This document shows positions 26,126-29,585 of a stretch of DNA of 64,000 nucleotides, in pieces. The translations under genes and the position numbers were made by a program. Positions within the stretch are counted from its first letter, which is position 1; each line of letters opens with the position of its first letter. This stretch comes from Bdellovibrio sp. GT3 (lineage in GTDB: Bacteria > Bdellovibrionota > Bdellovibrionia > Bdellovibrionales > Bdellovibrionaceae). The stretch is taken from positions 496,001-560,000 of the forward strand of contig NZ_JBBNAD010000004.1 in NCBI RefSeq assembly GCF_037996765.1. The letters are read 5' to 3'. A model generated the notes under the pieces. The model ran no database searches. It was not told the DNA's origin and worked only from the letters and a program-made list of their open reading frames with translations.

Positions 26126-26425
26126 TTCCCGTCCTCCTGTTACTGGTTAGGTAGTTCAAGGGTCGGGCCAACTGGTTAAGTCTGCGAAACTGTTGAAGTC
26201 CTTATTTGAGGCAGGAATCAGATGGAACGTGGGCGAATGTGAGGGTGGGGGTGTCAACCAATCACTGGACAGTGTCAGATCATTAGTTAGTCAAAACGAA
26301 TCAACTTCTCACAATGAAACATCCCAAAAGGCGCCTGCCGGTTTTTTGATACGCAATGCGTCTGGGTGCGAGTTTTTTTCTTTATTCTGCCCCGGGGGCA
26401 GGTTCGAGCCTACTATCACGAGGTC
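26126..26425. other. Intergenic region with one copy of a dispersed repeat
   Basis: This 300-bp divergent region between the transglycosylase and the MerR-fusion gene holds no recognisable ORF. At 26328-26348 it contains a 21-bp sequence (AAGGCGCCTGCCGG followed by T6G) that recurs exactly at 43872-43892. I see no clear promoter. Confidence 0.5.
26328..26348 (+). repeat. Dispersed repeat, copy 1 (AAGGCGCCTGCCGG-T6-G)
   Basis: The 21 bases are identical to 43872-43892. Both copies lie in intergenic DNA upstream of plus-strand genes. Here only the right part of the longer element at 43844-43892 is present; the flanking hairpin is absent. Confidence 0.75.
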
Positions 26426-27934
26426 ATGATGAAGAATTGGTTGTCTGTAGGGGAATTTGGGAAAAAAACGGGGCTTAGTCATAAGGCTCTGCGCATTTAC
26501 GAGGAAAAGGGCTTACTAGTCCCGCACACTCGCAGTGAGGGGCAGCACCGTGTTTATACCGAAACCCAGATAGTGATTGCCGAGAAAATCGTACAGTTTA
26601 AAAACTGGGGATTTTCTTTAGAGCAGATCAAGGTGCTTTTGGCTGAAACCAGCGAAGGCACGTTGAAGGAGTTGCTGGAGAGACGTCTTCAGGAAAGCCG
26701 TTCTGCTGCGGTTTCGCTGTCACAACAGATTAAAGCCTTGGAATCAGTGTTGGCCTCCTTAACCCTCGGTCACGAGTTGACCGAGCTTGAAAGGAGTCAA
26801 GTTATGGAAAATTTGTTGAATAGAAGTGTGAGTAATTTAAAGCGTCGCGGGGTGGTGGATTCTGAAGCCCTTTCGCGAGTGCAGAGCGAAGTCTCTTTGT
26901 ATTCCGATAGCAAAAAGGAATTGATCGCGGGGGTCCGCAAAATCGTCGACTTCGCAAAAGCCAATAGTCTTCTGTTGGGCCCGGGAAGAGGGAATTCGGC
27001 AAGTAGTTTGGTATTATACTCAGAAGGCTATGGTTATTTTAATCCACTGAAGTACGGTCTTGTGCCGGAGTATTTCTCTGCAACAAAAAGCGTTTGGATT
27101 GATGTTGAGTATTCTCGCAGTCAGGAAGTTGGCAGACTGGCTGATGAGATTGCACAAAAAACGGGAATCGAAGTTTACGCCTTTAAGAGTCCGGTTTTGG
27201 ATATTTTAAAGGATGTACAAAATCAGGTTGGAGAAATCGATTTCGATTCGTTCAGTGATGATGACCCGATGATTCTTTCGGCGCCTTCGAAGCTGGGTTT
27301 GGCTGGGCTCTGGGGAGTTGAGTACGGTGAAAACTATCATGCCTTTCAATCTCAGGATGAAGCTTCAAAAAAGAAATATTCCCTGAGTCACCTCGACTTT
27401 GAATCTTTGTATGCCAAGCCATTTAAATCTGCTTCTGACTTCATGATTAGAACAAGTTTGATTGGCTATAATCGGCTGAATAAGCTGGAGCTTTATAACT
27501 CCCGTAATGATGGAGAAGTAGATCCGCTCTATCCTGAGCTCAACGGCACCCGAGGTGTTATGATGTTTCATGAGGATTGGGATCGTGTTTTCTCCAGGGT
27601 TGCTGGAATTGACCTGACTGAGGCATCCCGAATTCGTCGACAAATTGTCAGCGAAATCATTGCCGATAAAGAACCCGAATCCGCTCAGCAGGTGCGTGCT
27701 CTGGTCAAAGACATGGCGACAGCGGATTTTCTGCTGGAGCACGTGGATAAGAACTTCATGAAAGCCCATGCCCTGACGGTGTGGTGGTACTACAAGCGTA
27801 CTGCGATTTTGAAGTCCCTATGGCCGAAAGAGTACCGTGCTGCCATTGATCGCTGGGAACAAAAGCATCAGATGTGGTGGCAGGAGTTTGGCTATAAGAT
27901 GGCTTCGGATGGGAAGCCTTATTTAAAGGCGTAA
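26426..27934 (+). CDS. MerR-type HTH fused to a degenerate DNA polymerase III alpha-like domain
   Basis: Residues 4-75 form a MerR-type HTH (SVGEFGKKTGLSHKALRIYEEKGLL...FSLEQIKVLL), then a coiled-coil helix to about 125, as in MerR regulators. From residue 160 the protein follows C-family DNA polymerase (DnaE) order: GPGRGNSASSLVLYS at 185 (DnaE GPGRGSxxGSLVAY), NPLKYGLVPEYF, WIDVEY at 224 (DnaE PDxDxDF), GVMMFHEDWDRVFSRVAG at 377 (DnaE GVIVYQEQVMQI), and KAHALTVWWYYKRTAILKSLWP at 446 (DnaE NKSHAAAYAxxxYxxAYLKxxYP). The first catalytic Asp is Trp and the third seems lost, so polymerase activity is unlikely. ATG 26426 gives 502 residues. Function unknown. Confidence 0.8.
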   Translation: MMKNWLSVGEFGKKTGLSHKALRIYEEKGLLVPHTRSEGQHRVYTETQIVIAEKIVQFKNWGFSLEQIKVLLAETSEGTLKELLERRLQESRSAAVSLSQQIKALESVLASLTLGHELTELERSQVMENLLNRSVSNLKRRGVVDSEALSRVQSEVSLYSDSKKELIAGVRKIVDFAKANSLLLGPGRGNSASSLVLYSEGYGYFNPLKYGLVPEYFSATKSVWIDVEYSRSQEVGRLADEIAQKTGIEVYAFKSPVLDILKDVQNQVGEIDFDSFSDDDPMILSAPSKLGLAGLWGVEYGENYHAFQSQDEASKKKYSLSHLDFESLYAKPFKSASDFMIRTSLIGYNRLNKLELYNSRNDGEVDPLYPELNGTRGVMMFHEDWDRVFSRVAGIDLTEASRIRRQIVSEIIADKEPESAQQVRALVKDMATADFLLEHVDKNFMKAHALTVWWYYKRTAILKSLWPKEYRAAIDRWEQKHQMWWQEFGYKMASDGKPYLKA

Positions 27935-27980
27935 AAATTACCCAAAAACAGTGCGTTGGATGGATTTTTAGCTGGTCATG

Positions 27981-28034
27981 GGCTATCTCTAGCGGTTCAA
28001 TATTTATACATATAACTGCCCGCAGGAGATAGCC
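27981..28034 (+). promoter_or_regulatory. Inverted repeat pairing with the ribosome binding site of the next gene
   Basis: GGCTATCTC (27981-27989) is the exact reverse complement of GAGATAGCC (28026-28034), which contains the SD of the gene starting at 28036. If both arms are transcribed, the SD would be masked; if the promoter (TATAAC at 28011 is a possible -10) lies between the arms, the repeat is instead a DNA-level operator. Confidence 0.4.
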
Positions 28035-28035
28035 T

Positions 28036-28419
28036 ATGAAATCACTTTTGATTGCTTCCCTTTTGATGATCGCAACAAGCGCACAAGCCTCTTTCCTTTG
28101 CACTAGCAAAGAAGTTCGCGAAGACGGAAAGCCTGCATACGGCATGACTGTGAACGAATCAGAAACTGTAAACACTCACGTGCAAATCGCGATCTGGGCG
28201 ACAGGCCGCGCTTCTGAAGCAGAGCAATTCGAATGTGTTCGTGAATCCATGGATTACGGCAATGGTCGTACTTCCCAGTATAAATGCGAAGCGAATGGCG
28301 ACAAAACTTTGCAAGTCTACGCGCAACGTTCCGGTCAAAAAATCTCTGCAACTGCTGATTTGAAATCTCCAGCAGGTCAGTTGATCCTTTCCAGCATGTA
28401 CTGCAAATCCATCGAATAG
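28036..28419 (+). CDS. Small secreted protein, unknown function
   Basis: The 127-residue protein has a clear signal peptide (MKSLLIASLLMIATSAQAS) and a mature part of about 108 residues with four cysteines (FLC, FEC, YKC, MYC), likely forming two disulfides in the periplasm or outside. No known domain is recognised. AGGAGA lies 8 nt before the ATG and a terminator follows, so it is monocistronic. The upstream inverted repeat suggests control of translation or transcription. Confidence 0.8.
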   Translation: MKSLLIASLLMIATSAQASFLCTSKEVREDGKPAYGMTVNESETVNTHVQIAIWATGRASEAEQFECVRESMDYGNGRTSQYKCEANGDKTLQVYAQRSGQKISATADLKSPAGQLILSSMYCKSIE

Positions 28420-28479: not shown

Positions 28480-29241
28480 TCAGCCAGCCAAAAATCTGAC
28501 AACGCCGTCGCGCAGGTTTTTCATGCTCTCAAAATGACTGCCTTCCCAGTACACGCGCTGGCAGTCCGGACAGATAGAAAACTCGCTGTAGGTTTCGGCG
28601 ACCAGGGGCGGGACCTGATCCAGAATTTGTTCTTTCGCGATGGGTTCCAGGGGAGTGTTGTCGTGAATACAGCGGGAGCAAAGTTGAGTTTCGCCTCCCA
28701 GATCATAACGTTTCATCACTTCCAGCAGTTGTTCCTGGGGAATATCACTGCGAACAAAATAACCCCGATCCACTTCGCGTCGTTTTAACAGGTTGCGGTC
28801 GCGAGTCAGCAGTAGACGATTTTCAAATTTTGAAATGCGCGCGATCTCCACATCATCCTGCAACCAGCGATCATAAATTACATCAAAGCCCATCATGCGC
28901 AGCAGGTGGGCGAGCTTACCCAGATTCACATCGACAATAAATTTGGGATCGTCACGTTGGTTGCGCAAAGGATCCTGCCGTAAGAGTGTCACATCTCCGA
29001 CATCGATTTCCTCAAACATCGGATAAACGCTGACTCGATCGCCATCTTTAACCAAATATGTGAACGGGCGGCTGTTGCCATTGACCAGAATCAGGTCGAT
29101 CTCGGTATGGGGGACTCCCAGGGACTCGATGGCATCCTTGACGGTGGTGGGCTGAAAAGTTTGAAAGATCACCTCTTGATGTCGATGCACCCGGGGCAGA
29201 AAATCATTCAGATCGTCATAGAATCTTAATTGCGCTTTCAT
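28480..29241 (-). CDS. Mut7-C RNase domain protein with N-terminal ubiquitin-like domain and zinc ribbon
   Basis: The 253-residue protein has three parts. Residues 1-80 are a ubiquitin-like beta-grasp (Mut7-C ubiquitin type) ending LVKDGDRVSVYPMFE. Residues 95-165 are a PIN-like Mut7-C RNase core: FIVDVNLGKLAHLLRMMGFDVIYD, then RLLLTRDRNLLKRR. The C-terminus is a zinc ribbon with CSRC and CPDC. PIN-like catalytic Asp residues (VDVN, LTRD) are present. These proteins are proposed to act on RNA, but their substrate is not established. The ATG at 29241 lies opposite the promoter region of the next gene. Confidence 0.88.
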   Translation of the reverse strand: MKAQLRFYDDLNDFLPRVHRHQEVIFQTFQPTTVKDAIESLGVPHTEIDLILVNGNSRPFTYLVKDGDRVSVYPMFEEIDVGDVTLLRQDPLRNQRDDPKFIVDVNLGKLAHLLRMMGFDVIYDRWLQDDVEIARISKFENRLLLTRDRNLLKRREVDRGYFVRSDIPQEQLLEVMKRYDLGGETQLCSRCIHDNTPLEPIAKEQILDQVPPLVAETYSEFSICPDCQRVYWEGSHFESMKNLRDGVVRFLAG

Positions 29242-29351
29242 ATCTTAGATTTTATTTGGATTCTTATTCATCCGCGAGACCTGTGCCAAAAGGCAAGTCT
29301 CTGCAAGTGGCTGGCTCTCACAGTATAATGGAAAGGTCCATGGGAGGTTTT

Positions 29352-29585
29352 ATGGCTGAAGCTAAAAAACAAAGTAAATTCTCTGATAACTTTTCGCCCG
29401 AGAAATTTGAAGATCCCGGCATTCCTCAGCGTGAACCTGAAGCTCCTGCCGGAGTTCAGGAAGCTGGACGTAAGAAAGCCTCCGAAGGAGCGCATCCTGT
29501 TCCAACCGAATGGGATCAGCCAGATGGGGAGTATTCGGAAGTGATGGACAGTGAGGGACATCGGGTGCGTATCAATCACTACTAA
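29352..29585 (+). CDS. Small hydrophilic protein, unknown function
   Basis: The 77-residue, highly charged protein (MAEAKKQSKFSDNFSPEKF..., ending EVMDSEGHRVRINHY) has no signal peptide, TM segment or recognised fold. Its middle is rich in Pro, Glu and Ala and is probably disordered. The start at ATG 29352 is set by GGGAGG 5 nt upstream. It stands alone between the divergent Mut7-C gene and a terminator. Confidence 0.65.
   Translation: MAEAKKQSKFSDNFSPEKFEDPGIPQREPEAPAGVQEAGRKKASEGAHPVPTEWDQPDGEYSEVMDSEGHRVRINHY

Follow-up and report, generated by a model that had tools for sequence, protein, structure and literature searches.

Why would a cell join the DNA-binding part of a transcription factor to the core of a replicative DNA polymerase that appears unable to polymerize? 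This question is raised by a gene in the window, by which we mean the whole 64,000-nucleotide stretch of Bdellovibrio sp. GT3 DNA analyzed here. A first-pass annotation had described its product as a MerR-type helix-turn-helix (HTH) fused to a DNA polymerase III alpha-like domain that had lost catalytic Asp residues. We found that the encoded protein does combine a MerR HTH with a C-family palm/fingers core that is catalytically dead. The further claim that such a fusion is undescribed also stands, as none was found in our literature searches, including word finds in the available text of PMC3919608 and PMC12926913.

The features of the gene are listed in Table 1. The start codon at 26426 is backed by the alignment of relatives; the start at 26366 given in the ORF list, which lies upstream of the dyad described below, was not preferred. 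The N-terminal part has the winged HTH and dimer helix of the MerR family, as had been proposed, and matched the MerR structure 3hh0 with a Z of 13.1. In the C-terminal part, Pfam DNA_pol3_alpha matched residues 144–218 above the cut-off (6e-8) and DNA_pol3_finger matched residues 366–410 slightly under it (3.8e-4); two divergent members (L091 and L095) were over the cut-off for both. NCBIfam DnaE models gave E values as low as 1.8e-11, and phmmer against the PDB found Taq Pol III alpha at 1.3e-9. Using hhalign against a profile of 21 DnaE1/DnaE2 proteins taken from the phylum, residues 126–477 aligned with DnaE 301–791 (99.9%, E 5.3e-31). An AlphaFold model based on an alignment of 13 members (pLDDT 85.9, pTM 0.70) had Pol III alpha as its top Foldseek match (2.4e-10), and VIA-align placed 334 residues on residues 301–848 of Taq Pol III alpha (4iqj_A; Z 29.9, rmsd 3.1), with 16 polymerase rows ranking above the first MerR row among the matches listed. 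The proposed fold could have failed in these profile and structure searches and did not: homology to the palm and fingers of C-family polymerases is present, and the motifs that the first-pass annotation had quoted in DnaE order lie where it had placed them. A frameshift artefact or chance resemblance is ruled out by the profile match, the fold, and the occurrence in 22 genomes.

Table 1. Features of the fusion gene and its upstream region (positions in the window; SD, Shine–Dalgarno)
Feature	Position	Strand	Basis
Promoter/operator-like CTTTATT + perfect 15-bp dyad CTGCCCCGGGGGCAG	26380..26401 (dyad 26387–26401)	+	7/7 pairs
MerR–DnaE-like fusion gene, 502 aa	26426..27934	+	Start MMKNWL, ATG 26426; in-frame translation
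MerR HTH, residues 7–74	26444..26647	+	PF13411 (MerR_1) 4.6e-15
Long helix (dimer coiled coil), residues 80–113	26663..26764	+	AlphaFold model secondary structure
Internal RBS GAAAGGAG + start codon ATG (26804, residue 127)	26789..26806	+	AGG 19/19; best internal SD pairing
DnaE-like palm + fingers domain, residues 127–484	26804..27877	+	hhalign 126–477; VIA Z 29.9
Putative free short product, residues 127–502	start 26804	+	Internal start, sequence evidence
GPGRG loop, residues 185–189	26978..26992	+	G185, R188, G189 in 19/19
WIDVEY, residues 224–229, at catalytic DxD site	27095..27112	+	224 W/H, D226 in 19/19
AFKSP, residues 252–256, at catalytic D555 site	27179..27193	+	No acidic residue 19/19; strand match
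Fingers motif GVMMFHED, residues 377–384	27554..27577	+	G377, E383, D384 in 19/19
KAH (DnaE KSH), residues 446–448	27761..27769	+	H448 in 19/19 = own DnaE H762

The domain shares its palm and fingers fold, the GRG loop, and the KSH histidine with DnaE1 and DnaE2, but it differs from them in the attached MerR HTH and in the loss of catalytic Asp residues, thumb, PHP, and C-terminal clamp-binding parts. The alignment ends at DnaE 791, and its confinement to DnaE 301–791 in a 502-aa protein bears out the claim that the tau- and beta-binding parts are absent. Only 28 residues separate D226 from the D555 equivalent, versus 149 in the organism's own DnaE. Fragment 118–272 matched the fold of E. coli residues 283–587 (best model pLDDT 80.2, other four 57–70), and the chain therefore skips the thumb.

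Residue counts below refer to 19 of the 22 fusion-bearing genomes; left out were a copy with an internal stop (G154), a contig-edge fragment (G054), and G010, which was checked apart and agrees. For C-family polymerases, absolute conservation of D401, D403, and D555 has been reported (PMC3919608, section 18, within the text available). In the fusion family, at least two of the three are missing in 19/19 members, whichever register is used. In the phmmer register, W224 coincides with or adjoins E. coli D401, the first catalytic Asp, and D226 corresponds to D403; the hhalign register equates S222 with D401, W224 with D403, and D226 with a further conserved Asp (D405), and also lines up a Pro found in 8/19 members. 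Position 222 is Asp in 3/19, and position 224 is Trp in 9 members and His in 10. The claim that Trp replaces the first catalytic Asp must be amended in one point, as W224 has an ambiguous register, at D401 or at D403. The apparent loss of the third Asp, also suggested, was found as well: residues 252–256 hold no acidic residue in any member, and the D555-equivalent position 254 is Lys, Arg, or Gln. It is the fold match of fragment 118–272 that assigns strand 249–255 to the D555 strand; two thumb-deleted hhalign templates were tied (281.1 vs 282.1). Judged by its residues, the domain is catalytically dead as a polymerase.

Eight of the 76 aligned positions that are invariant in the 21 DnaE proteins are kept in 19/19 members (R188, G189, E215, D226, L372, G377, E383, and H448), and at another 23 no member keeps the DnaE residue. 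P214, V227, P256, and Y470 are invariant in the family and differ from DnaE; D384 and K457 are likewise invariant in the family. The GPGRG loop, Lys553, the fingers Arg pair, and the KSH His have roles in binding the incoming nucleotide. Lys553 is lost in the family, and the two Arg are kept in 13/19 and 11/19 members. No usable nucleotide contacts were found in the text of PMC12592400 that was available. In four close pairs, dN/dS was 0.08–0.11 (0.06–0.12 for the C-terminal part), and a pseudogene is rejected for these pairs. Because of these ratios, the family pattern looks like a remodeled binding site rather than decay.

We investigated the distribution of the fusion using the C-terminal part as the query, counting matches that scored far above the ordinary DnaE level. 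Such matches were found in 22/368 genomes and 10/181 genera of the phylum, including 15/66 genomes of the family and 10/24 of the genus; the search for the same fusion in other genomes thus revealed a conserved family. Among the 22 are the edge fragment of G054 and the G154 copy (L096:9236–10813), in which one in-frame stop lies in the DnaE-like part, 3' of the internal start; in the remaining 20, the match extends into the MerR part. With strict patterns across 84,980 species, the named records comprised Bdellovibrio, Bdellovibrionaceae, and Bdellovibrionales assemblies (at least 8 loci). A mobile or phage origin gained no support: 83 pattern matches in a scan of viral contigs included no confirmed relative, 123 plasmid records matched but none over 80% of the query (in each of the 8 listed, the match starts within the MerR part, and in one it runs to residue 185), and neither of two phage records (DnaE-like 174–293; HTH) covered 80%.

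The gene order at the window locus is common to G022 and G011 among the loci compared. Elsewhere, neighbors differ among the loci listed, with none conserved beyond close relatives, and no operon partner was recognized there. A DEAD-box helicase gene adjoins the fusion in three genomes (G018, G001, and G105) in differing orientations, possibly by chance, and no link to defense genes was seen in the neighborhoods listed, which were inspected by eye. Between the window and G022/G011, seven flanking genes are 76–96% identical (except a small secreted-protein gene, 68–85%), whereas the fusion is 52–54% identical; DnaE of the window's genome (G000) and of G022 are 96.7% identical. In G021, both flanks are kept and the fusion is absent (window ~26321–28022 missing; L164:4038–4533), leaving an empty site. 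Given this empty site, the low identity relative to the flanks, and the differing neighbors, the fusion gene is accessory and fast-diverging, and it is selected.

Other variation was observed downstream. In G011 and G021, the place of the small secreted-protein gene (28036–28419) is taken by two copies in tandem. A gene for a Mut7-C RNase with a ubiquitin-like N-terminus (28480–29241) is poorly conserved in G022/G011, where only an ORF of ~100 aa matches it among the ORFs listed, and ORF 29256–29585 is also poorly conserved there.

Within the fusion gene, the codon for R123 is AGG in 19/19 aligned genes. AGG accounts for 65/557 Arg codons in these genes, and each of the four remaining well-conserved Arg columns has it in at most one sequence. 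The codon before that of R123 is GAA, GAG, CAA, or CAG, and nine bases past the AGG stands ATG in 18 genes and GTG in one; two further copies, from G010 (AGG + ATG) and the broken G154 gene (AGG + GTG), agree. The 19 rows are akin, some being 93–95% identical and others sharing as little as 23%. Since silent sites should be saturated at 23% identity, the conservation of this codon is not explained by the protein. Predicted SD pairing of the start at residue 127 was the best among all internal starts in 13/19 genes, including the window gene, and ranked 4th to 7th in the remaining 6. This start coincides with the border of the DnaE-like domain (hhalign 126), and therefore the domain alone would be released. 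These features suggest a free dead-polymerase domain as a second gene product. The possible decoy role that the first-pass annotation had mentioned gains a specific form, because the conserved internal start would release the dead domain separately.

Upstream of the gene, the window dyad was matched by 0/300 shuffles and lies at the same place in relatives, and the whole element has no other exact pattern match in the genome. Ten of the 19 genes have TTGAMM, 19 bp, and [TC]ATNNT upstream (per-gene chance <1% in shuffles), and the usual MerR promoter spacer is 19–20 bp. In several of these 19-bp-type elements, the spacer holds the dyad TTGCCGTTACGTCAA, or a dyad close to it in sequence, always at the same position. 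The window's group instead has TTTA(C/T)(C/T) and then a dyad of the CTGCCC-GGGGC type (L085 has a different palindrome); in 7 members a TATA-like hexamer comes 25 bp further on, an arrangement absent from the window itself. Both the 19-bp and 25-bp patterns were composed after the sites were seen, and the promoters of the window and L086 fit neither; the L086 element is the group B operator with 2 mismatches. The dyads outside the window, mostly not significant singly in shuffles, count as evidence because of their fixed position.

Genomes were scanned with operator patterns built from these sites (up to 3 mismatches), which would miss degenerate sites. A match at the own gene holds by construction, and the informative part is rarity elsewhere. 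The exact group A site occurred once per genome, at the fusion gene itself, in 7/7 genomes; 13 further matches with 2–3 mismatches compare with 10 in the reversed control, at 1–3 per genome, and one of the 13 is the window's own dyad read in reverse. For group B, 8/11 genomes had a match, with 6 exact and 2 two-mismatch sites at the own gene and two further sites, one of them before the MerR–Lon gene of G014 (see below); 3/11 genomes had none, and reversed controls gave 0 in 11 genomes. Near-exact copies are essentially limited to the own gene, so a wide regulon is not indicated, and the sites suggest that the fusion genes are autoregulated.

This plan resembles that of TipA and AlbA. According to the available text of the sources, TipA has two start codons and forms a minimal autoregulated system in which the short TipAS sequesters the antibiotic (PMC7762955), and AlbA is assumed to follow the same two-start plan (PMC6078987). 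Like TipA (TipAL/TipAS) and AlbA, the fusion has a MerR HTH, a coiled coil, a putative C-terminal binding domain, an own promoter element, and a second in-frame start at the domain border, the last known for the fusion from sequence alone. Unlike in TipA and AlbA, a DNA polymerase III alpha core forms its C-terminal domain in place of TipAS (PF07739), which was not among the Pfam matches of the protein. We tentatively propose, at somewhat less than an even chance, that the fusion gene follows the TipA/AlbA plan as a self-contained and autoregulated gene that responds to a ligand, with the dead polymerase core as a ligand domain that is also made alone and soaks up the ligand. As a MerR dimer, the full-length protein would occupy the promoter of its own gene. 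The C-terminal core, having lost catalysis and thumb and kept part of the nucleotide site, would bind a ligand of the polymerase active site, such as a DnaE-directed small molecule or a nucleotide, and in the bound state the MerR part would activate the promoter. Two proteins would then be translated from the mRNA: the regulator at full length and, by way of the start at residue 127, the dead domain alone, which would soak up the ligand and spare the real DnaE. We infer the making of both products, positive autoregulation, ligand binding, and sequestration from five lines of evidence: AGG with ATG or GTG at the domain border in all 19 genes and the two further copies; conserved promoter/operator elements with near-exact copies rare elsewhere; the lack, among the loci listed, of a conserved neighbor beyond close relatives; invariant R188, G189, and H448 under purifying selection with the catalytic Asp gone; and the precedents of TipA, AlbA, and, as far as its source text goes, a DnaE homolog proposed as a nargenicin decoy. 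The missing TipAS domain, a window promoter that fits neither pattern, and better SD pairing at other internal starts in 6/19 genes count against the proposal.

A polymerase inhibitor is a plausible ligand by analogy, because the DnaE homolog beside the nargenicin cluster, NarR/NgnU, has been proposed as a decoy (PMC8922275, available text). As described there, NarR/NgnU is not a MerR fusion, and the likeness lies in the putative decoy role, by description only. Against such a ligand, the same text reports that nargenicin binding to DnaE1 requires DNA, and the fusion lacks the thumb; of three contact residues reported for Mtb DnaE1, the family keeps the His in 19/19, the Arg in 10/19, and the Gln in 4/19 members, with equivalence taken from numbering. 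The main alternative ligand is a nucleotide, against which stand the lost Lys553 and the partly kept fingers Arg pair. A protein is a possible ligand.

Similar MerR modules also carry other domains. We examined 20 hand-picked stretches from the search matches, plus L002; the MerR parts of the Mur-like and Lon-type sister fusions described next are 34–45% identical to that of the DnaE-like fusion. In one type (L002:1501–2505, G000:C5:580169; relatives L147 and L149–L157), the MerR part is followed by a domain that we take to be Mur-like from its motifs, with an NADD motif and no intact P-loop. Its profile homology is weak (MurD E 0.59; murF 0.02 in 1/10 members), and a Pfam search up to E 1 with 4 members gave no Mur family match. 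Within these genes, an AGG precedes an ATG at the corresponding domain border (at −4 in 9/11, at −3 in one, and not so in one). In the window's own genome, a site at G000:C5:580122–580143, 25 bp before the Mur-like gene, has 3 mismatches to the window operator. The Mur-like fusion is possibly a second pseudoenzyme-type regulator. In another type (L138:542–1627, G014:C1:1016241), full-length in 1/24 genus genomes, the partner is a Lon substrate-binding domain (PF02190, 3.2e-24); an operator-like palindrome lies upstream of the gene, and the internal ATG has no good SD. The sister fusions thus resemble the DnaE-like fusion in the MerR part and, in G000 and G014, in the upstream sites, but differ in the captured domain.

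Other explanations should be weighed against the TipA/AlbA-like reading. We consider it rather unlikely that the fusion is a physiological nucleotide sensor, in which the dead domain would read a dNTP or another nucleotide, the MerR part would control a gene set (e.g., genes serving replication or the supply of nucleotides during the predatory growth cycle), and the short form would tune the response. MerR proteins commonly carry ligand domains, which fits such a sensor, and the GRG loop and KSH histidine are kept in 19/19 members, but the rarity of near-exact operator copies away from the fusion gene speaks against a controlled gene set. For a core sensor, the sparse spread (22/368 genomes) and the fast divergence (54% vs 96.7% for DnaE) would also be odd, and Lys553 is lost. 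Less probable still is an integrated decoy for proteins, to which replicase-attacking phage or competitor proteins would bind, be titrated, and trigger the gene. An accessory, fast-diverging, selected gene with present and absent sites, and sister fusions with pieces of other housekeeping proteins, fit such a decoy, but the neighborhoods and viral contigs covered above gave no defense-gene link and no confirmed relative. A replication-coupled regulator, in line with the suggestion of the first-pass annotation, whose domain would contact primer-template or parts of the replisome and link fork state to transcription, is very improbable: although fingers and palm are kept, the missing thumb (28 vs 149 residues), PHP, and C-terminal clamp-binding modules leave fork binding less supported as the main role. 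It is more improbable again that a changed metal site (D226, E228, and others) supports some other nucleotidyl-transfer chemistry, for although in a shifted register D226 (19/19) and E228 (17/19) could form a Dx[DE] pair, at least two catalytic Asp are missing throughout and Lys, Arg, or Gln occupies the site of D555.

A conserved, selected, yet dead Pol III alpha core is surprising, as the catalytic Asp residues are reported to be absolutely conserved (PMC3919608, available text). If the domain senses or traps active-site ligands, the gene would be a natural reporter and decoy for replicase-acting compounds or nucleotides, and the replicase is a drug target. Because of the internal start, a single gene suffices to put the idea to a direct test. 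More broadly, and in our view rather unlikely as a whole, Bdellovibrionota may possess a class of target-mimic regulators, in which copies of housekeeping proteins without catalytic function (DNA polymerase III alpha, a Mur-ligase-like domain, and the Lon substrate-binding domain) would have been captured by one MerR module. Each gene would be a self-regulating sensor with a free mimic made from a conserved internal start, detecting and soaking up agents aimed at those machines. Such a class, if true, would be a bacterial counterpart of integrated-decoy immune receptors.
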